A stretch of DNA of 24,947 bases from Fragilariopsis cylindrus CCMP1102 (Eukaryota; Bacillariophyta; Bacillariophyceae; Bacillariales; Bacillariaceae). Where the stretch lies: contig FMBT01000680.1 of assembly GCA_900095095.1 (NCBI GenBank), positions 1 through 24,947 of the forward strand. Reading direction: 5' to 3'. The notes under the pieces are model-generated. The model made no database searches. It had not been told where the DNA came from and worked only from the letters and a program-made list of their open reading frames with translations. The number at the start of each line of letters is the position of its first letter. Within the stretch, counting starts at the first letter, position 1. The translations under genes were made by a program, and so were the position numbers. This document shows, piece by piece, positions 3,653 through 24,947 of the stretch.

Positions 3653-5797
3653 TCATTTGCTGCTCATCAATGTACCAGATGTAGAAATATGTGCAAGCAA
3701 AATCGTAGCAAGTGGAGTGTGGCGAAGCGAGGAACCCGATTCATTGACACATTCGCTTTTCAAAATCTCCTCCCCGGAAACAGCACCTCTCAATACATTC
3801 AACAGACATTCCCTTCTAGAATGCATATCAGTTTTGTAAAGTTTCGAAACCATATTCTTTGATACACCACACGATTGTTCTATTTCAAGCAACGAACGAG
3901 ACCATGGCATCTGCTCAGCCCATGCATCCCACATTCTTCTCATATTATATTCAAGTTTTTCTTGTTGATTCTCAACAACAGCATCATGTGTAAAGACGTC
4001 GAAAAGTGCCTTGTCCTTCTCCTCCTCCTCCTCCTTATCCTCGTCGTCGTCATCATCATCTGAATCTTTTGTTGGGTCTTCTTGTGCATGGTCTAAATGC
4101 TCTATTTTTCCCTTCAATTTTCCTGTTGATTTTATGTTTATATTGTTTTGTGTAGTTGCTGACCCAGATTGAGATGTTGTCTTAGACTTACCATCATTTT
4201 TCATATGGACTTGTTTTGCTACTTTTTGCATGACCGCTCCAGCTGTGCACACAAAGTATGCAACTGCAGCACACATAGTAGACATTTTTGTACCGCTGTT
4301 ACGACCAAGCTGCATCTGCTCATTTCTACAATGCACAAGCAAAACGCGAATGGAAGCTTCGGCCACAGGTGGTAGTTGTAAGTTTCGAATGAAATGATCC
4401 GCGAAATTTGAAGTAGAGATACTGTCATAATTATTGGTTGAAGACTGAGAATCACCTGTAGCATCGTTACCAATCGGTACTCTTGCGTATTCTGGAAAAT
4501 ATACCTTAATTTCATTCATAGCACAAGAGCAGTGCTTCGGTTTGATCAATACAGTTTCTTTAGTGTATTCTAACTTAGGATGAAAGCAGTTGCATATTTC
4601 AACCATAGTTCTGGTCCATCCAAGATTCCTCGTAGTCAGAAAAAGAATGGCTGCACCCAAGGAGCTGATCTGCTTTACCTTGTTATATTCCCTCAGTCTG
4701 ACGGTAGCAGCCTTCCGTTCCTCTTTACTTTCGTTCTTATTTTCCTTTGAGAGACGACTAGACACCCCTTTCACAGAATAACCATCTCTTCTAGTAATAT
4801 AGCGCACGAGGCGATGAATGGCTTCATCTATGACTCGACTTGGAATATTAATCTTTCTGGCAGCTGATGTTATCAAAGTGTAGGAATAGTACAGATCTCG
4901 AGATGCGGTTTTTAATTTACTATCCATTTGAGAGAGCACGTCCTCACGATTTTCGCCCATTTCTGAATAATTCTTTCCCCCAAATGAGTCTTGAGATGTA
5001 CCATGCAACATTATAGCTCTATCGAGAGACCATTTGTCTGCGTATATTGCTGCCTGTAACCTATGAGCATCTTCTTCTTCTTGTACAACAATCATATCGA
5101 ATTCAGGCCGAACTGAAGAGTTAAAATCTGTATCTGCGATATTATTTGCATTTGTTCCACCTTCTTTCTTCAATCGCACCCTTCTATCAAGCTGGGCATC
5201 ATGAAGGGCCCTTTTATGGGCCTTACCCATCAGATGGTCAAGTTTTTTGTTGGTAGACTTAAGCTGTTTTCGAATTAGGGCCATTTTGTACCCTCCCGCA
5301 TTATCTCCGAAGGCACTTTTTGAAAGTATTGTCGGTTGCAGACCACCAACGTATTTGGTTTCATCGACCGGAACAAGTCCACTACGTGACTTGGACGGCA
5401 ATCCTTTTATTATGTCTTCTGCGTCATTAAAATCCTTCCATTCTGGTCGATCGTCCATCATACGGCTTTCGGCTACAACACCACAATTAGTACAAATCTT
5501 ATCCCCTTGCGACCAGTCGGTTACCATAGCTGTAGAGTGACAGCTACGACATGTTTCCTCATCTTCGTCTATCGTCGGACATCCTCTCCCGTGGCAATTA
5601 TTTCTTTCATTGGCGTTAAATACGACAGGTATGGATTCAGGTCCATTCAAACAAGGTGCACTGATTGGTGGGTTGTGTGGTAGCTTCCTGGTTACAACAT
5701 TCTTTGAATTTTGTCTACTACTTTTATTATTATTAATATTAATATTATTATTATTTGATATTGTGGGACTCCAGGGTACCATCGTTATGCTGTTCAA
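3653..5797 (-). CDS. TFIIB-like RNA polymerase II initiation factor, enlarged
   Basis: A 714-codon intronless frame. An Asn-rich low-complexity leader (residues 15-30) precedes a zinc ribbon with Cys83, Cys86, Cys102 and Cys105 (CRSC ... CTNC). A B-reader-like segment follows (DDRPEWKDF), as in TFIIB, where it enters the polymerase active-site cleft. Two cyclin-like repeats come next: the first around residues 300-440 (SRVIDEAIHRLV; GAAILFLTTR), the second from about 480 to 700, ending in a helix-turn-helix-like LLEIEQSCGVSKNMVSKLYK. TFIIB is normally about 310-350 residues. The extra length lies in a linker rich in charged residues (about 160-290) and an acidic insert near 577-592, where roughly 20 consecutive residues are mostly Asp or Glu, inside the second repeat. 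It should recruit polymerase II to TBP-bound promoters. Being so enlarged it may be a divergent paralogue rather than the main TFIIB. I saw no C-terminal Brf1 domain. Confidence 0.85.
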   Translation of the reverse strand: MNSITMVPWSPTISNNNNININNNKSSRQNSKNVVTRKLPHNPPISAPCLNGPESIPVVFNANERNNCHGRGCPTIDEDEETCRSCHSTAMVTDWSQGDKICTNCGVVAESRMMDDRPEWKDFNDAEDIIKGLPSKSRSGLVPVDETKYVGGLQPTILSKSAFGDNAGGYKMALIRKQLKSTNKKLDHLMGKAHKRALHDAQLDRRVRLKKEGGTNANNIADTDFNSSVRPEFDMIVVQEEEDAHRLQAAIYADKWSLDRAIMLHGTSQDSFGGKNYSEMGENREDVLSQMDSKLKTASRDLYYSYTLITSAARKINIPSRVIDEAIHRLVRYITRRDGYSVKGVSSRLSKENKNESKEERKAATVRLREYNKVKQISSLGAAILFLTTRNLGWTRTMVEICNCFHPKLEYTKETVLIKPKHCSCAMNEIKVYFPEYARVPIGNDATGDSQSSTNNYDSISTSNFADHFIRNLQLPPVAEASIRVLLVHCRNEQMQLGRNSGTKMSTMCAAVAYFVCTAGAVMQKVAKQVHMKNDGKSKTTSQSGSATTQNNINIKSTGKLKGKIEHLDHAQEDPTKDSDDDDDDEDKEEEEEKDKALFDVFTHDAVVENQQEKLEYNMRRMWDAWAEQMPWSRSLLEIEQSCGVSKNMVSKLYKTDMHSRRECLLNVLRGAVSGEEILKSECVNESGSSLRHTPLATILLAHISTSGTLMSSK

Positions 5798-7324: not shown

Positions 7325-9380
7325 ATGGTGCGAAAAATGACGAGTTACTGCTCAAGAATTACTCTATCCAAAGCAATCCCATCCCTACTTTCTGTACTGA
7401 CGGTGCTTCTCATTTGTGAGAAGGTTAATGGATTCGCAATAACACCGAAGCAAAGATCACTCAACAGACCATGCGACACTATTCGGATCATGTCATCTTC
7501 ATCATCATCATTTTCGGTTCTACATATGTCAAAATTCGATAGACGCGACGGCGACTACGACGACGATGATGAGGAGTGGATTCGACCGACGAAAGGATCG
7601 TCGAGAGACCAGTCACGTTATTCTAATAGTAGGACTGGTGATAGAAATAAAGAAAGAAATAGCAACTATAATCCTAATTATAAGAATAATAATAATCAAC
7701 GACGACAACAGGTTGGGGCACTACAGGATGGCGATGTGGCAGAAATTACAGAGACTAATGCTCATTTTTTCAGTAAAAATCCTTGAACGAACCATCATTC
7801 CATCAGTTTTTCTCAGATACAGAAATTGCAATAGATTCAGACAATAATGACAAAAGCAGTACAAGTAATCAAGAGTTGCATCAGTTACTTTGTCAAGGTG
7901 CAGGAATAACGAGGCCTTCTCGTATACAATCTCTTGCGTGGCCCCAAATTTTAAGTGGGAATCACACAATCGTAGCCGACCAAACCGGCTCTGGTAAAAC
8001 AGGTGCCTACCTGGTTCCTTGCTTGCTACGATCTTTGCAGACACCATCAATCAAGCAAAATGGCGCTCCTAAGGTTCTCATTCTAGCTCCAACAGCAGAA
8101 TTGGCAGATCAGATACGAGCTGTTTGCTTAAAAATTTCTCAAAATGGTACACCCTTCAACACAATGGTCGTCACGGCTAACGGAAAGTTTACAACATCTA
8201 TTCGTGACCAAATACGAATGATTCAGCGGACACAGGTGGATGTTTTGATCAGTACACCGGGACGTGTTTCTACAATTCTACGCACACGCAATTCCGGTCT
8301 CGATTTATCTAACCTACAATCTATTGTGTTAGACGAGGTTGATATTTTAATGGTCGATGAAACCTTTGGACCGCAACTAAGGACCGTTGGGGCTGCTGCA
8401 CCACTTTAGGGAAAACGCAATTCATATTTGTAACTGCAACACTTCCAGATTCAGTCGTTGAGACTATTGAAACTGAATTTCCGGGTGTGGTCAAAATCAA
8501 AGGACCTGGTCTACATAGACTAGCTCCGTCGTTGCAAGAGCATTTGGTGGACGTTTCAGTCCCAGCGGACCAGAATCGGAACGAAGAGCTTTGTTTTGAT
8601 GTCAAAGCTAAGCAATTATTGAAGGCTCTGCGACAGAACCGTTGCCGAAGAACACTTATCTTTTGTAATACAGTCGAATCTTGTCGTACCGTGGAAAATT
8701 TATTGAATCGAAAGGATCGACATAATCGCGTCTTCGAGGTATTGTCATACCATAGTGCTATGAAACCAGAATCACGGAATGCAAATTTAAGCTTATTCGC
8801 TAATGGCAAGAAAAATAACAGCTACGAAGAAGTTGATTATGTTCTAATCTGGTAAGTGCTGTAATTGGATATTTGCATACCCCCATACAAAAGTATAGAA
8901 TTGCATATTTGACTAACCTCTACTTTATTTCTTGATTCGATATCTCACGTCCTTACTTATTTATGTAATATTTCATATCTCCTGTTATGGTTATGCTTTA
9001 ATCTGGATGTGTTCTCACAAAAAAAAATGCTCATCCTTAGCACGGACCGAGCAGCACGTGGAGTAGACTTTGATGCAGCTCCAGTAGATCATGTTGTGGT
9101 GTTTGATTTTCCAAAAGATCCCGCGGAATATATTCGAAGAGTTGGCAGAAGTGCTCGAGCAGGAAGGAAAGGTACGAGTACGGTATTTGCATATGGTTGG
9201 CAACTCCCCATTGCAAGAAGCGTAATGGGTAATAAGTTGGGTAGCTACTCTGTATCAGCCAATGGCAACGATATGGCAGACAATGAAAGTGACTACGAGC
9301 CTCGTTTTAATCGAAGGACAAAGAAGAGGAAGGACGTTATGATGAAGGAAAAAATTGAGAATGGAAGTCTCTGGGAATAG
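7325..9380 (+). CDS. Plastid-targeted DEAD-box (DEVD) RNA helicase, RH50/RH39-like
   Basis: Two exons, 7325-8851 and 9041-9380, joined by a 189-base GT-AG intron; the join makes Cys from TG|C and restores motif V ([14 protein letters not shown]). The N-terminus is a signal peptide (hydrophobic residues about 14-36) followed at the cleavage site by FAIT, so the protein should enter the plastid. Helicase motifs in order: Q motif (RPSRIQ), I (ADQTGSGKT), Ia (PTAELA), Ib (TPGR), II (DEVD), III (TAT), IV (LIFCN), V, and VI ([13 protein letters not shown]). The PTAELA, DEVD and RRVGR variants fit, as I recall them, the plant plastid RH50/RH39 group, which acts in plastid rRNA maturation. The frame breaks twice: near the A5 run at 7775-7779 and near the T3 run at 8405-8407. 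One added base at each gives 622 residues ([25 protein letters not shown]). The breaks are probably assembly errors; a decayed gene is less likely because all motifs are intact. Confidence 0.87.
8852..9040 (+). other. Intron of the plastid helicase gene
   Basis: Begins GTAAGT and ends CTTAG; phase 2. Removing it joins motif V of the helicase exactly, and reading through it gives a stop at once. This makes it one of the best supported introns in the window and shows normal spliceosomal signals in this genome. Confidence 0.92.
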
Positions 9381-9719
9381 TACTCTCAACCTCATAAGTA
9401 GCATCTCTAAGGTTAAATAGTAGTTATATACACTAAAAATAATTTTAAATACTATATTTTTATACCCTTCTACCTAGAGTAGTACCGTATATTATCACCC
9501 CTGAATTGTAGTCAATACCCTTCTACCCCGATGGGTCCACCAACCTCCCCCAAATAAACAGAGCCATTCGCCATCGTACGACTACTGTAGTAGATTAAAT
9601 TTTGGAAAACGAGAAAAAGTTTATCTGTTTTATCTGAAAATACAACCTAAACAACTACTTCAAGTACTCTCATACTGTAGTAGAAAGCAATAATGTTGTA
9701 CTAAAGTGCTAGTTCAAAG
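9381..9719. other. Intergenic region with a 13-base direct repeat
   Basis: About 340 bases between two genes on the same strand. ATACCCTTCTACC occurs at 9462-9474 and again at 9515-9527. The segment should contain the helicase 3' end and the promoter of the methyltransferase gene. The repeat could be a protein-binding site or chance. Confidence 0.5.
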
Positions 9720-10883
9720 ATGAGAATGCCTTTGATTAGGCACGATATATCTAGACCATGCCACATCATACGTGTTCTAGTACTTGTAGTAATAATGAAT
9801 CTCTTTCTCCTTCCAGCTACGACTAACATCGGACGATGCCGGGCATTACGTTCTTCTTTGGAAACAGTTGGTCGTATCAATCATAGGTCTCTCTACAATA
9901 CCGGAAGTAGGAATAGGGGTAGAACTAACAGATGCTCACCGTTGGCAATCGATCGGGACAGTCATAACGATGCTATCCATGAATCAGTCTCAAACATGTT
10001 TAGTCGTGAGAGCAGGAACTACAAGAGGTTGTATCATCTTGAAAATATGGCTGCTGATAATACTGACGGTACAACAAGTACGAATATAATATCATCTGCT
10101 GGAAGGAAAAAATATAACGTCGCAGATATAGGTACAGATCATGGTCTTTTAGCAATGGGACTAGCCCTAACAGGAAAATATGATAAAGTTATAGGTGTGG
10201 ATGTTTCGGATCAGGCACTGGAAGGGGCTCTGGAAAATTTTGGTAATCGTATGGACGTCGAGTTCAGATTGGGGAATGGCTTACAAGCTTTAAAAGATGA
10301 CGAAATTGATATTATATGTATAGCTGGAATGGGTGTCAATACTATGCTTGAAATACTAGACCAAAATTCCGCGACGATGACGACGACGACAGTCGATGAT
10401 TACAATGATGGGGATAATGATAATGATAATAATACCACAGATCTAGAGAGAGTTGGGTGCAAGCGACTTGTCTTACAACCCACGAACTCTAAACCACGAA
10501 ACTTGGTTATATTGTATGATTGGCTACAAAGTAAAGGGTGGAATATAAAGGACGAACGAATTGAAAAAATTTCCTCTCGTTGGTACTTTTCGACGAGTTT
10601 CGAATTGACTAAACAAAATCAACAATACACAAGTAGTATGGATAGTATGCAACTACCGGGATGTAAACTTGTTTGTTTAGACCAGTCTCATTCGATGAGA
10701 AAGGAATTCGACGAGTACTGTAAGCATCATAAGTTATGGATAAAGCAAGATCAAAGAGTATCAGACCAGAAGAAGGAGATTAATCCTCGTGAATCGAGAT
10801 GGCTAGAATACTTCTTCGATAATGATACCGATAATAATGGTATCCATATTGAACAAATAATAACGCAACAACAAACGGAATAG
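9720..10883 (+). CDS. TrmK-like tRNA (adenine-N1) methyltransferase with signal sequence
   Basis: A single 387-codon frame. After an N-terminal hydrophobic stretch (residues about 17-33) and a basic, Ser-rich leader, the catalytic part starts near residue 130. It has VADIGTDHGLLAMGLA (S-adenosylmethionine motif I of TrmK), VIGVDVS (motif II), IAGMG near residue 200, and RLVLQPTNS followed by LYDWLQSKGW. These are the hallmarks of the TrmK/COG2384 family, which in Bacillus methylates A22 of tRNA at N1. Bacterial TrmK is about 230 residues. The excess here is the leader, an Asp/Asn-rich insert of about 25 residues after the IAGMG region, and a C-terminal extension. The family is mainly bacterial, so a eukaryotic copy suggests bacterial or organellar ancestry. 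The signal sequence suggests ER or plastid delivery, though no clear Phe-led plastid motif follows it; plastid tRNA as substrate is inference. Confidence 0.8.
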   Translation: MRMPLIRHDISRPCHIIRVLVLVVIMNLFLLPATTNIGRCRALRSSLETVGRINHRSLYNTGSRNRGRTNRCSPLAIDRDSHNDAIHESVSNMFSRESRNYKRLYHLENMAADNTDGTTSTNIISSAGRKKYNVADIGTDHGLLAMGLALTGKYDKVIGVDVSDQALEGALENFGNRMDVEFRLGNGLQALKDDEIDIICIAGMGVNTMLEILDQNSATMTTTTVDDYNDGDNDNDNNTTDLERVGCKRLVLQPTNSKPRNLVILYDWLQSKGWNIKDERIEKISSRWYFSTSFELTKQNQQYTSSMDSMQLPGCKLVCLDQSHSMRKEFDEYCKHHKLWIKQDQRVSDQKKEINPRESRWLEYFFDNDTDNNGIHIEQIITQQQTE

Positions 10884-11028
10884 TAAACGCAGACTTTTTC
10901 TATCAGATCACTATGTTGAATGTTTCTGATAAATAAATAATATTAAAATCTAAATTTTTTTCTAATGAATTCCTTACTAATACAGAAAGAAACTATTGAA
11001 TAACTTTGACCATCGTTTTCAAACAATT

Positions 11029-11083
11029 TTCAGGTTTAGCACAAAAAGGAAAAGCCCCTTTAAAATAAAAGCACTACCGTCAT
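11029..11083 (-). promoter_or_regulatory. Weak SECIS-like candidate
   Basis: On the minus strand ATGAC (11083-11079) and TGAA (11032-11029) could form the non-Watson-Crick quartet of a SECIS core. The 46 bases between them are a plausible spacing. Helix II is poor: GG(T)AGTGC against GTGCTA..ACC with a bulge and two wobble pairs, and the AAA in the apical region lies 17 bases from the quartet, farther than usual. I list it only because a SECIS is expected here. Confidence 0.2.
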
Positions 11084-11179
11084 TCATGTTGGTTTTCGAA
11101 CTTGTCATTTCGATTGTTTCTTTGCATAGGGAATCAGTCAAACTAACGTTATGTGGTATCATTGGATTGCTCCAACGAA

Positions 11180-11214
11180 GCCCGCCAAGGACAGTAAATG
11201 TGTCCTTGTCGGGC
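11180..11214 (-). promoter_or_regulatory. Strong hairpin just 3' of the selenocysteine UGA
   Basis: On the minus strand a 14-base arm (11214-11201) pairs with 11193-11180 around a 7-base loop, with a single A-G mismatch; the outer five pairs are G/C. It starts right after the terminal TAA and six bases after the UGA codon. That position resembles the selenocysteine redefinition element described for the animal SELENON mRNA, where a hairpin about six bases downstream promotes UGA recoding. It has no SECIS quartet, so it is not the SECIS itself. An alternative role is 3' end formation or RNA stability. Confidence 0.6.
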
Positions 11215-13593
11215 TTAACCTCAGCATCCACCAGCAGCGGCGTCATCGCCACTACTCTTAGTGATAGATAGTGTTACAAGTTCTTCTGATGATGTTGGAT
11301 GAATACCAACTGTATCAGTAAGCTGTCTGTATGTTAAACCATTCTTCATTGATACACCATACCCCTTTACCAGTATAAATTAAATAGAATGGGTCAGTTG
11401 AGTGATATAAATTAGAGTGAATAAGAAAGAATCGTCTATGAACAACCTGAACAAAAAATATCACACCATTTCCGATGACTTACCTGCATAATCTCTCCAG
11501 CATTGGGACCAACATAGTGGATTCCAACCACCTGCTCATCAGAAGATTTCGCATCAACCAAGATTTTGGCAAAAGCATTGGAATCATGTCGGGAAAGGGA
11601 CCATTCCAGGGGTAAAAATTCCCTATGATAAACTTCGATTCCATCCTTCCCGTGCTTTGCAATCGCATCTTCTTCAGATAGGCCGATACAAGCGTATTCG
11701 ATTGGTGTGAATACCGTTGTACAAATATTGATATAATCCATGGGTTCTTTTGAACCACCATAAAGACGACGAGCTAAAGCTTTTCCAGCTTGGATGGCTA
11801 CGGGTGTTAGCTCAGGACATCCATCCATAACGTCCCCAATAGCATAAATATTGGGACACGAAGATTGTTCATTTATGGTCTTGATTTTACGATTCTTGGG
11901 ATTAGTATCAACGTTGACAGATTCGAGGCGCAGTTTGATAGTGTCAGCAGTTCTACCGACAGCTCCCAGGACAGTGTCGTAAACATCATCAGTTCCATCA
12001 GAGAATGTGACCTTGATGCGATCATTCTCTACCCTTTCGAGCTTGCTTGGAGTTACTTTCGTTTTGAACTTGACCCCGTGTTCTTTCATGTAATCCCCAA
12101 TCCGTTCTGAGCACTCACGATCAAATCCTCGTAGAAGGATACTGCGAACCGCAACTGTAACATCCTTACTCATTCCAGCCAGAAATCCGGCACATTCCAA
12201 ACTAATGTAGGAAGCTCCCACGCACAATGTTTTACCCGGATCTTTATCTAGAAAAAAAACATCATCACTCGAAATTGCCAAGTCGCCACCTTCACAATCC
12301 AATGGTGTTGGTCGTCCACCAGTCGCCACAAGAAAACGCGAAGCGGTAATTTCACTAGTTTGGCCCTTCTTATCAACTAACTCGACGGTGTGATTATCTT
12401 TGAAGGAAGCCAGTTTGTTCAGATACTGAACACTCTTCTCACGAAGTCCAACCCTGTACTTGAAGTTTAAACTGCGAATGTAATTCTGAATATTGTCTTT
12501 GACTGCCATCCAATTTTGATCTGTTTTTAAAGTAGGTGGCTGGCCCATTTCATCTGGCTTGACCCCAACCGATGATATCCCGAAAAAGTTCGCGTCTGCT
12601 TGAATGGATTCTCTCAAAGTTGCACCGATATGGAATAGCTTTTTGGGGATACAACCTACATTGACACAGGTTCCTCCCAGTCCCCATGTAGTTCCCTCCG
12701 GTGAAGGCTTAACGAAATCACATAGTGCCACTTTGGCCCCCAGAAGCGCTGCTTCTTTAGCAGCAGCCATTCCTCCACTACCACCACCAATTACAACAAG
12801 CTTTCGAAGGAAGGAAGACAGAAAGAAAGCAATGGTATAAGTTTTAAAATTTCTTGTGGTATACCAATTATTATTACGATTGCAGATATAATATCTGTGA
12901 ACTCATCATCTCGTCATCATCATCAACAACCTCAATGTACGACACTGCTTTCAATTACAAAGATGAAACACAACACAAGACAAGACAAGAAACTTACGTC
13001 GTAATCGTAACCGTGATCGGCCTTGTTTCCATCAGCTACCATAACTGCTTCGGGTTTGTAACTTTCTAATTTTGCTGGATTCATGAAGACCCGACACCAA
13101 TCCAAAGTTGCATCGTGACCGCCCAAATACTTAGTAATATCGGCAGGATCTGGATCACCTTCCCGCGGAGAATTCGAGATCCAAACAATAGGACAGGATA
13201 CGTGCTCCTTTCCATCCTGCTCACAGAAATTGCTCCTAAATTCATCGTCCACTAACCACTCGCGATACTTTGTACGATCATCAAATTGGTGAACACGAAC
13301 ACACAATCGATTGGGAAAGAGTAGGGAGATACTTGACAAACATTTTGTGATGCGATTGTAAAAACCACCTTCAAAGAAATATGAAATTTTTTAATGATTA
13401 TCATATACAATATACAATGTACCAAAAGAAGTGAAAGTTTGTGAGAGGAGAGGATCGGAATAGTTGTAAATTATCTCGTGGTTTCGGACATCATCGACGC
13501 AAAAATAATATCGCACGAAAGGAAAAACGTATTCTGAAACATACACGAAGGATAACCTGCAACATGCAGGACTTTCGGTCCGGATGTTGACAT
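11215..13593 (-). CDS. Selenoprotein: glutaredoxin-like domain fused to thioredoxin reductase
   Basis: Four exons by canonical splice signals: 13593-13545, 13368-12998, 12800-11484 and 11364-11215, giving 628 residues. Introns are 176, 197 and 119 bases, starting GTATGT, GTAAGT and GTAAGT. Residues 1-140 form a glutaredoxin-like domain with Cys17-Gly-Phe-Tyr20, a cis-Pro-type SCPIVW and YLGGHDATLDW. The exon 2/3 join gives YDYD-LVVIGGGSGG, the FAD motif. CVNVGC (Cys185, Cys190) is the flavin-proximal disulfide, and HPTSSEE holds the catalytic His601. The C-terminus reads Gly-Cys-UGA-Gly-TAA, the classical selenocysteine tail of high-Mr thioredoxin reductases. The enzyme should use NADPH to reduce thioredoxin; the fused domain may extend this to glutathione-type substrates as in animal thioredoxin-glutathione reductase (inference). 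No mitochondrial or plastid leader is evident. If UGA is a plain stop, a form ending in Cys626 would be made. Confidence 0.9.
11221..11223 (-). other. Predicted selenocysteine codon (UGA)
   Basis: The TGA lies between TGC and GGT-TAA, so reading it as selenocysteine gives a C-terminal Gly-Cys-Sec-Gly, identical in layout to vertebrate thioredoxin reductase. The frame is fixed by the preceding conserved VGIHPTSSEELVTLSITKSSG segment in the same exon. Confidence 0.85.
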
Positions 13594-14486: not shown

Positions 14487-15369
14487 ATGTCTTCCTTACG
14501 AAATGCCGTGAAGCGTATTGCTCATAAAGAGCGGTCGCAGCCCGTCGATAGGCAACATCTGGGTATCTTGGAAAAGAAAAAAGATTACAAGCAACGTGCT
14601 ATTGACTATCATCGGAAGGAAGATAGGAAGAATGCCATGAAACAGAAAGCATCTATGAGAAATCCTGATGAATTTTACTTTGGGATGCATAATTCTAAAA
14701 TGGAAGATGGTAAACATAAATCGAATGAAGATTATAGAAACTTGTCTCCGGATTTAGTGAAGGTAATGAAAGATCAAGATTTGAGTTATATTAGGATGCA
14801 AAAGCAAAAAGATACGAAAAAGGCAGAACGGTTACAAGCATTTTTACATTTGTTAGATTCTGATGGTGTCGGTACCGGAACACATACTGTCTTCGTAGGA
14901 AGCAAGAAGGATGCTCGAGAATTTAATGTTGCAGACCATTTTGGAACAATCCCAGAAATGGCTGGTAGAGCCTTCAACCGATTACGTAAAAGTGATATTG
15001 AAAAACTTGCCCAAAGAAAACTTGGTGGGTCAAGTACGAGTACTAGTAGAGGAGGGAATGATGATGTACAAGTAGATGATAGTAATGATAATTCACAAAA
15101 ACAACAAACAACAGAAAAAACTTACTGTCGACCAACTAAATAAATTGCAAAGAAAAGAACGAAAATTAGCCAAGACGCTTGCTAAGGCAAGATCTGGTTC
15201 ATATAAGGAATTGGAATCCAGAAGAGACCGAGCAGATCAAATGAAAACGGCGGAAGATCATTTGGTTACCGAGAAGCTTGTTGCTGGGAAGGGAAGAAAA
15301 CGCAAAGTGAAAGCAGAAGACGATGGTCGACCTGCTCAGTATAAATGGCGAAGAAAGCGATTGGGATAG
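14487..15369 (+). CDS. UTP11: U3 snoRNP-associated protein UTP11
   Basis: The N-terminus matches the UTP11 family: SLRNAVKRIAHKERSQP, then LGILEKKKDYKQRA, DYHRKEDRKNAMKQKASMRNPDEFYF and the HTVFVGSKKDAREFNVADHFGT block. UTP11 is a component of the small-subunit processome and acts in the nucleolus in 18S rRNA maturation. The frame breaks at the A6 run 15115-15120, just after an Asp/Ser/Gln-rich low-complexity insert. Removing one A there continues into LTVDQLNKLQRKERKLAKTL and the basic end YKWRRKRLG, for a total of 293 residues (family about 250). The tail is a typical UTP11 coiled coil and basic terminus, so I treat the break as a sequence error. No intron is needed. Confidence 0.92.
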
Positions 15370-22816: not shown

Positions 22817-24947
22817 TCATTTTTTGACAAGCCATGCATTCAAGGTGGTTTGTTTGGAATTATTAATTTTAGGGCGTTTCGAAGAGTTATTTGTGTTTCC
22901 TTCTTCAGCGCATCGTTTGTTTTGGCTAGGCTCGAGACATACTTGATCTACTATTGAGGTCTCGTTCATTTCGATCGTCTCATGCGGAGACGATGAGGAT
23001 ATAGAAGAGTCACTAAATGATTCGACACTAGATGGTTCTGAACTGAATTGAGATAGTATAGGATCATCCATATTTTCACCCGGCTCTTCAACATCTGAAT
23101 CTGGTTGCTCTCGCTGTCGTTTGATGTTTGACGAGGTAGGCGTCACGGCTGTTTGGGACTGTCCGTTACCGTCTGATGATTCAAATAATTCGGAAGCATC
23201 CAACGATGGTGAGCCGAGATCAGTTTGCTTGATAAGAATCTGGTCCCGAAATTGATTGCCTCTTTTGTTCAGATTCAACTTTGTCAGTGGAGATCGCGGT
23301 GGTTGGCAAACGTCATCAGAGAATGATACGTTATCCAAGCACTCAGTATTCGTATTTGGGATACCATCAGGACTACTAGTTTTTATCTCATCATCATCAT
23401 CATCATCGTCGTCCACATTTTCGCCTCCGGCACTAATATTATTGTTGTTATTGTCACTCTCAAGAGGCATTTGTTTGATACATCCGGAAGGAGACGGCGG
23501 TTTTGATATTTGGATTTTTGACATGGACGAAGGATTTGAAGCATTTACGTTACACATGTTAGTTTCAGGTAAATCTGTGATATCAAGGTGGAATACACTA
23601 TCAGTTCGACTATGACTGGAGATCGCGGCGTCAGATTCTTCTTTCGACAGAACACTATCATCTTTGGAACACTGGGAGGCTATTTCGTCGTTATTATATG
23701 GTGCAGAATCGTCAACACCATCTAAGTTCTTGACTTCTAATTCTTGTTTGAAAAGACGCTTGTTTGTAGTAACTGCTGGATCATCAAGCGGGTGACAGTG
23801 TGTGTCACCATCATCAACGTTGATCCAGGAATGATCACAGGCTTGACGAACCGTAAGTCTTCGTTTGGGATCTTTACGAAGCATTTGAGCGACGAGCTCC
23901 TTCGCGGCGCTCATTGTAGACCATACATCGAGGTCCGATTCAAAGTCGACCTCAAACCCTTGAAATTCATCCATATTAGTATCAAATGGAGGCTTTCCAG
24001 TCAGCAAAATATACAAAATCACTCCGAGGGACCACATATCTGCGGGTTTTCCATAACGTCCCTGTCCTGCTACAGTACCACGACGCTGAAGCACTTCCGG
24101 CGCAAAGTACGCTGGGGTTCCACAAAATGTCTTCAATCCATCCGACTTGACAATTTTAGCAAGTCCAAAATCAGCAAGTTTCACATGCGTCGGAGAGGAA
24201 CAAAGTATATTTTCCGGCTTCAAGTCTCTATGGACAATGTTTGAATCTTCGTGAAGGTAATGGATGGCAGACAAAAGTCTTCTCATTGCTCTCCTGGCCT
24301 CCACCTCGGTATATCTTTGTTTTTCTACAATACTATCAAAAAGATCACCACCCTTTACAAGTTCCATCACCAGATACATGGCTACTCCGTGTTCAACAAA
24401 CACTTCTACTAATTTCACAATGTACGGATGATCAATGGACTGAAGTATACTAACTTCCCTCTCCATCATCTCCATCATGGAGGTGTCGACATGCCGCCGA
24501 AGATTGATTACTTTAACTGCTCTCTCTTTCCCAGATTGTCGATGAATAGCACGACGCACCTGACCAGAGGTTCCATCACCAAGAACCTCTCTCATATCAT
24601 AAAAGGTTTCAATGCGCCTGGTTGTTGCTGTTGGAGAAGCGGCAGGATTATTATTTTTATGTTCATTATTGTTGATGTTGTTCCGATTGTTCCTGCCGAT
24701 GCCAGCACCGAAGTTTGTAATTCATGGCACGTGGATTGACACAAGATTTTCGTGGTTTGGACACAACAAATACAAAAGAAAATTGTTGCAACACCATCTG
24801 TACAATTCTATGCGATGATATCTTCTTGCGGAGTGTTTCTGAATTGATCAAGCAAATTTCATCTCCCGAATGAAGAATACGAGTTTCACCTTTTTGTAGA
24901 TGTATTCCTTGATTGATAAATGTTCCGTTTCCAGAATTGTCTTCAAT
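22817..24947 (-). CDS. FHA-domain protein kinase, Rad53/Chk2-like (5' end outside window)
   Basis: From the window edge the frame encodes the end of an FHA domain (DNSGNGTFIN, KGETRILHSGDEICL, SFVFVV), which binds phosphothreonine. Then comes an Asn-rich linker and a complete CAMK-type kinase domain. Counting from the Met at 24595: glycine loop GDGTSG (6-11), catalytic Lys28, HRDLKPEN (122-129), DFG (142-144), APE (165-167). FHA plus CAMK kinase is the architecture of the DNA-damage checkpoint kinases Rad53/Chk2. The long C-terminal tail is acidic and Ser-rich, with a poly-Asp stretch, and ends in KRPKINNSKQTTLNAWLVKK, a basic segment followed by a PIP-box-like motif. Between FHA and kinase the frame changes near TTT 24714-24716; removing one base gives MNYNFGAGIGRNN and an uninterrupted 709 residues plus stop. 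A short intron there is an alternative. Confidence 0.87.

Follow-up and report, generated by a model that had tools for sequence, protein, structure and literature searches.

A predicted diatom selenocysteine thioredoxin reductase with an N-terminal glutaredoxin-fold domain resembling that of MDH1B

The 24,947-nucleotide stretch of Fragilariopsis cylindrus CCMP1102, a diatom of the Bacillariaceae, analysed here (contig FMBT01000680.1, the window in what follows), taken from an assembly of 67.9 Mb in 818 contigs, carries on its minus strand, at 13593-11215, a gene whose four exons join in one frame of 628 residues (629 codons including the TAA). This gene probably encodes a diatom selenoprotein thioredoxin reductase (TrxR) whose extra domain, at the N-terminus, has the glutaredoxin fold and belongs to a class also found at the N-terminus of MDH1B; the enzyme would serve thioredoxin as well as glutathione-type substrates. 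The analysis establishes the joined gene and its two redox centres, the fold predicted for this added domain, the conservation in it of Cys17, Pro and Gly-Gly-x-Asp, and the occurrence of the fusion in both pennate and centric diatoms; identity and fusion are far firmer than the step that gives Cys17 a redox role. The interpretation proposed in the first-pass annotation of this DNA, a selenocysteine TrxR fused to a glutaredoxin-like domain, is supported as a whole.

Fusions of a glutaredoxin-fold domain to TrxR are already known from flatworms, mammals (TXNRD3 and a splice form of TXNRD1) and filarial nematodes, as told in parts of PMC8914392. Among the open-access titles and abstracts listed, no description of such a fusion in diatoms was found, and the fused algal selenoproteins to which PMC7539508 gives a section of their own include none with TrxR. 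What is new here is that the known plan appears with a different partner domain, the unnamed family of this domain being the more novel part. In this regard, a selenium reductase of major marine primary producers follows the same plan as the animal enzymes with an unnamed partner. Were the domain active, selenium would connect the thioredoxin and glutathione pools of diatoms in a way that annotation has overlooked. Moreover, the orphan N-terminal domain of MDH1B, a protein of ciliary radial spokes, gains relatives tied to a redox enzyme, and its function becomes testable.

One gene and one fused protein

The rebuilt frame (Table 1) is exactly the one that had been proposed from the letters of the sequence, with all three introns of the GT...AG type, intron 1 cutting the Cys17 codon at the predicted place, and the motifs CGFY, SCPIVW and YLGGHD standing at residues 17-20, 74-79 and 97-102. 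For intron 2, eight AG acceptors between the donor and the flavin adenine dinucleotide (FAD) motif were tried, and only the one before 12800 leaves exon 3 open to its end. The protein P0001, from source contigs of at most 2370 bases, is an uninterrupted frame of 626 residues that differs from the gene model at 2 of 626 positions (residues 276 and 557), away from the joins at 17, 140/141 and 579/580; because the introns are missing from it, P0001 is likely of RNA origin. In the same line, P0002, an MMETSP protein of 628 residues marked as complete, has the same layout and is 80% identical across the N-terminal region, and several entries of MMETSP and EukProt, presumably transcriptome proteins, repeat this layout (P0002, P0004 and P0056 are examples). 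A first homology search gave 103 matches among 135 candidates, a Pfam domain of TrxR type being listed for all 103, and 63 of them combine the Cys motif in their first 60 residues with a C-terminal Gly-Cys end.

Support for a gene-model artefact uniting two adjacent genes could be sought in P0103, the public F. cylindrus CCMP1102 protein of 515 residues, which begins at Met112 and is identical to residues 112-626, so that the public protein has neither the extra domain nor selenocysteine (Sec). Such an artefact is already contradicted by the single frame of P0001, with identical joins, and by the many homologues, several of them MMETSP or EukProt entries, in which both ends occur together; its probability is practically negligible. 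The separation of the two halves on different mRNAs, against which the first-pass annotation had set its proposal, was not what was found, since both lie in one open frame in the transcriptome proteins. Altogether, the gene rebuild is confirmed and the fusion is real.

Named homologues come from pennate and centric diatoms (Nitzschia, Pseudo-nitzschia, Fragilariopsis, Thalassiosira, Cyclostephanos and others), the named sources outside this group being the dinoflagellate Kryptoperidinium foliaceum, which hosts a diatom endosymbiont, and the ciliate Tiarina fusus, whose sequence possibly derives from prey. The source assembly has two more copies, on contigs C276 and C476, which align collinearly with the locus over some 10 kb (98.5% and 97.8%) and seem to represent haplotypes or assembly duplicates of a single locus. 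The C476 copy (G000:C476:112500-122400) shows many single-base indels in one-base runs, probably the product of uncorrected long-read assembly, and frames on this contig are therefore unreliable; its status as a paralogue was set aside, the copy being collinear and its differences mostly of this kind.

The reductase part has the FAD, reduced nicotinamide adenine dinucleotide phosphate (NADPH) and dimerisation domains of the selenium TrxRs of high relative molecular mass (Mr), with Pyr_redox_2 at residues 139-479 (E 1.8e-53) and Pyr_redox_dim at 500-610 (E 8.8e-27) in Pfam. The NCBIfam model TIGR01438, which covers this module, gave 616, 632 and 636 bits for P0001, P0098 and P0056, respectively, with a cut-off of 475.85.

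The N-terminal domain and its relatives

Both the structure model and fold comparison find a thioredoxin/glutaredoxin fold in the N-terminal domain. A placement of residues 1-140 outside the thioredoxin fold had been named at first pass as grounds for dropping the proposal; the N-terminal part is modelled inside it and, compared with glutaredoxins, has additional helices inserted after helix 2 and before strand 3. Conservation is nearly complete at Pro76, Trp79, Gly99 and Asp102 (each 102 of 102 covering sequences), Gly100 (101 of 102) and Tyr20 (78 of 81), and centric diatoms, P0085 and P0099 for example, have GGCDD instead of GGHD at the glutathione-site element. The site of Cys17 is covered by 80 of the 103 homologues, the other 23 ending before it, with Cys in 68 and Gly in 12. 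Upstream of the Gly, the residues of these 12 are unrelated. Across both protein searches, 19 homologous frames show an entry reading GGF at the intron 1 point; they would represent read-through of an intron at that position, so the intron splitting the Cys17 codon is probably old.

The first-pass annotation had proposed a resemblance to MDH1B closer than to the CPYC glutaredoxins, and this proposal held. For the comparison, profiles of 62 TrxR N-domains, chosen by the C-x-F-Y motif and by length, and of 43 MDH1B N-domains were aligned with hhalign, the MDH1B sequences coming from a search with 353 matches among 401 candidates, of which 120 were listed. The two profiles matched with 85% probability and a score of 38.5 over 91 columns, with Cys, W-L, H-x-x-SP-x-x-W and LGG paired in succession; 40 column shuffles reached at most 20.8 and a reversed profile 10.9. 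Smaller sets of 14 and 5 sequences gave 74% and 34.0. With a set of four glutaredoxins from this genome, the score of the TrxR N-domain was 28.4 (43%), a rough comparison in view of a set far smaller than the 43 MDH1B sequences, and MDH1B scored 14.0 (0.6%) with the same four. The top structural match of the domain model was the MDH1B N-terminus (chain 9d2f_F), at 1.7 A over 94 residues, and in structural comparison the partner domain lies nearer to MDH1B than to the glutaredoxin domain of thioredoxin-glutathione reductase (TGR). On this evidence, the likeness to MDH1B comes ahead of that to glutaredoxin, inside one fold.

A search with the domain profile limited to short proteins gave 47 matches among 2599 candidates, of which 23 run into the TrxR FAD motif, 14 are pieces of diatom-type N-domains and 10 are without TrxR (P0260-P0265 and P0267-P0270). 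Judged by sequence, these ten are the nearest relatives outside TrxR found here, and their hosts, at a guess, are probably algae or other protists. They share HTSSPFVW-like and GGCD motifs with the diatom domain, the active site being CPFH in six, CPSH in one and CGFF in one, and not covered in two. P0260 is a lone domain of 130 residues, P0267 has FKBP_C behind the domain, and in P0261, P0264, P0265 and P0268 the N-terminus is extended by a further segment; a Pfam scan of P0260, P0261, P0265, P0267, P0268 and P0269 gave a family above cut-off in P0267 only. The TrxR N-domain profile scored 154 with eight of the ten, a similarity that is by construction as they were found with that profile, and the same eight scored 37.9 (87%) with MDH1B, where 40 shuffles reached at most 18.1. 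P0255 and P0266 are divergent fusions. A Tetrahymena protein fits a mobile domain: according to parts of PMC12399478, it resembles mouse MDH1B in residues 1-66 only and its level falls in a CFAP91 knock-out.

Compared with known systems, the diatom enzyme shares with TGR (TXNRD3 and the platyhelminth enzymes) an N-terminal glutaredoxin-fold domain and a selenium TrxR module; it passes TIGR01438, and Foldseek puts SjTGR first for the full-length model. Its site is CGFY, in contrast with CPYC in flatworms and CPHS in mouse (parts of PMC8914392 and PMC3530482), and its domain lacks a Pfam glutaredoxin match and CXXC/CXXS, being closer to MDH1B. The filarial TrxRs of Brugia malayi and Onchocerca volvulus are likewise selenium enzymes (CVNVGC, GCUG) having a glutaredoxin-like domain without glutaredoxin motifs and one exposed Cys, but the sections of PMC8914392 that deal with them describe no CGFY, GG-x-D or SP-x-x-W, and they belong to clade IIIc nematodes instead of pennate and centric diatoms. 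With the MDH1B N-terminus, known from radial spoke 3 (RS3) of mouse respiratory cilia (9d2f_F), the domain has in common the fold and the order of C-x-[FY]-[YF], W-L, H-x-x-SP-x-x-W and LGG; MDH1B differs in a CPYY or CPYF/CPFF site, in GG-x-N as opposed to the diatom GG-[HC]-D, and in a malate dehydrogenase-like module behind the domain in place of TrxR, PF02866 being absent from the diatom enzyme and present in P0222. Classical glutaredoxins (PF00462) share the fold, the cis-Pro position and the GG-x-D element, but neither a Pfam match nor CXXC/S is found in the diatom domain.

Several observations weigh against the affinity with MDH1B. With E values of up to 10 allowed, sequence searches of the domain against solved structures retrieved no glutaredoxin and no MDH1B, and the MDH1B link therefore rests on profile-profile and fold comparison; in Pfam, residues 1-140 matched no family, PF00462 included, when E values up to 1 were admitted. 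Of the 33 rows in the alignment used for the model, 3 were MDH1B, and this could bias the structural match toward MDH1B. Foldseek alone ranked thioredoxins first (E 0.006 and worse, none below 0.001), with the MDH1B chain absent from the best 50 rows listed. The 62 TrxR N-domains were preselected by the C-x-F-Y motif, and scores from four glutaredoxins and 43 MDH1B sequences do not stand on equal terms. One further search recovered MDH1B because MDH1B rows were present in its alignment. A strongly diverged ordinary glutaredoxin, descended from the same ancestral fusion as animal TGR and not of MDH1B type, would account for the shared fold and domain order, for the GGCDD of centric diatoms, a glutaredoxin-type element, and for scores with the four glutaredoxins that, for the diatom domain as for the CPFH relatives (30.5, 65%), exceed the shuffle range, the shuffles having used MDH1B columns. 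This origin is judged unlikely. A fusion independent of animal TGR is plausible.

A wider proposal, which we regard as possible at somewhat less than even odds, is that of an undescribed redox-domain family with the pattern C-x-F/Y-x...SP-x-x-W...GG-x-D/N, joined separately to malate dehydrogenase (MDH1B of animal cilia), to selenium TrxR (diatoms) and to FKBP (one sequence), and also occurring alone. In diatoms it would have produced, independently of animals, a glutathione-linked selenium reductase working with a single Cys, the resolving Cys/Ser being replaced by Tyr, and this would be the standard diatom TrxR.

Proposed function

In TrxRs, electrons pass from NADPH to FAD, then to the proximal Cys pair and to the Cys-Sec tail of the other subunit. 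By analogy, NADPH would in the diatom enzyme reduce FAD, FAD the pair Cys185/Cys190, and this pair Cys626/Sec627 on the partner subunit. The tail would then hand electrons to thioredoxin or to Cys17 (a mixed disulfide or a glutathionylated thiol), and a single enzyme might in this way serve thioredoxin and glutathione-type substrates, as the TGRs of flatworms and mammals do. Because CGFY has no second Cys, Cys17 would follow a monothiol route, or else the domain may do no more than bind glutathione or dock partners. In TGR, the Cys-Sec tail passes electrons on to thioredoxin or to the attached glutaredoxin domain. Mouse TGR uses a monothiol CPHS site for this, and parts of PMC3530482 name as glutathione-site elements a Tyr/Phe beside the Cys, the cis-Pro motif and the GG kink. 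Of these elements, the diatom domain has Tyr20, Pro76 and Gly99-Gly100, with a Tyr replacing the second Cys/Ser.

The N-terminal domain could also be without redox activity, acting as a glutathione-binding, docking or stability module of an otherwise ordinary selenium TrxR. A single Cys without CXXC or CXXS would suit this alternative, and it has a precedent in the Brugia TrxR, whose glutaredoxin-like domain lacks glutaredoxin motifs: its Cys22 touches the Cys-Sec tail, the enzyme has neither oxidised glutathione (GSSG) reductase nor glutaredoxin activity, and a Cys22Ser change altered nothing measured, as far as the relevant parts of PMC8914392 tell. Ciliary MDH1B, for its part, belongs to a structural assembly, the RS3 head (9d2f_F; described in parts of PMC11779644). 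Set against this are the frequency of Cys17, the Gly of the 12 exceptions apparently coming from frames that read out of intron 1, and the retention of Tyr20, Pro76, the two Gly and Asp102, not all of which a purely structural domain would require. The 12 Gly sequences, provisionally taken as intron read-through, stand among the points against the favoured reading. A domain without redox activity is a serious possibility, though less likely than not, and a monothiol glutathione-linked role of Cys17 may be favoured over it at somewhat better than even; the preference stays modest because the comparable Cys of Brugia, as far as was measured, tolerates a Ser in its place despite its contact with the tail.

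A predicted selenocysteine at the C-terminus

What speaks against Sec627 is the want of a selenocysteine insertion sequence (SECIS): Rfam gave no SECIS match across the window, and SECIS_1 none in the whole genome. A permissive Rfam search of 9000-11300 yielded three weak matches, two to microRNA models and one to IS009, which were taken as chance, and a rough scan for the UGA/GA quartet in 1515 bases on the 3' side gave best matches no better than those of 20 shuffles. These negatives would suit a TGA that is a true stop, the enzyme ending in Gly-Cys as a truncated non-Sec TrxR. However, GC-UGA-G-stop is the signature of high-Mr TrxRs (GCUG also appears in parts of PMC8914392), Gly625 and Cys626 are invariant in the 42 sequences chosen for alignment, 74 of the 103 matches end in Gly-Cys, and the genome has 13 tRNA-Sec matches above cut-off, haplotype copies included. 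Moreover, a survey that includes F. cylindrus gives 20-44 selenoprotein genes per diatom in the parts of PMC7539508 concerned; set beside the zero SECIS_1 matches in the genome, these numbers indicate that the SECIS_1 model is probably blind here. A true stop is therefore very improbable.

Just after the UGA lies a hairpin, found at this locus and in the C276 copy only, which overlaps the TAA; a segment of 61 bases that includes it has a folding energy of -26.7 kcal/mol (z -4.3), and none of 200 shuffles was as stable. As a SECIS it was rejected, since by eye it has no UGA/GA quartet. Recoding aids have been described just after some Sec UGAs, in a position like that of this hairpin, and a role of this kind is possible.

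The tRNA-Sec genes are grouped three by three in tandem, with starts 163 to 220 bases apart; haplotype copies are likely among the groups.

Features of the locus

For the four neighbouring frames of the window listed at the end of Table 1, no functional link to the TrxR gene was seen; the TrmK-like methyltransferase frame is convergent with it.

Table 1. Positions of the features discussed (window coordinates unless a contig of the source assembly, G000, is named)
Feature	Position	Strand	Remarks
Exon 1	13545..13593	-	Met1 through base 1 of the Cys17 codon; same join in P0001
Intron 1	13369..13544	-	176 bases, GT-AG; splits Cys17 codon as T/GT
Exon 2	12998..13368	-	Cys17 to Asp140; the bulk of the glutaredoxin-like domain
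Intron 2	12801..12997	-	197 bases, GT-AG
Exon 3	11484..12800	-	Leu141 to Gln579; FAD and NADPH domains, most of the dimerisation domain
Intron 3	11365..11483	-	119 bases, GT-AG
Exon 4	11215..11364	-	Gly580 to Gly628 and TAA
N-terminal thioredoxin-fold domain	13082..13575 (intron 1 inside)	-	Residues 7-112, b-a-b-a-b-b-a; structure models and fold matches
Pro76	13190..13192	-	Expected cis-proline position (SP-x-x-W)
Gly99-Gly100-His101-Asp102	13112..13123	-	Glutaredoxin-like glutathione-site element
CVNVGC (Cys185, Cys190)	12651..12668	-	FAD-proximal redox disulfide, from sequence; nearly invariant in the 42-sequence alignment
In-frame TGA, Sec627 of C-terminal GCUG	11221..11223	-	GGA-TGC-TGA-GGT-TAA, Gly-Cys-Sec-Gly-stop
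Hairpin	11178..11216	-	Starts 4 bases past the UGA
tRNA-Sec runs	C69:253984-254395, C547:25383-25794, C138:53536-54004, C56:120323-120828		G000 contigs
TrmK-like methyltransferase	9720-10883	+	Neighbour
Utp11	14487-15143	+	Neighbour
TFIIB-type zinc ribbon protein	3653-5797	-	Neighbour
Protein kinase	22817-24595	-	Neighbour
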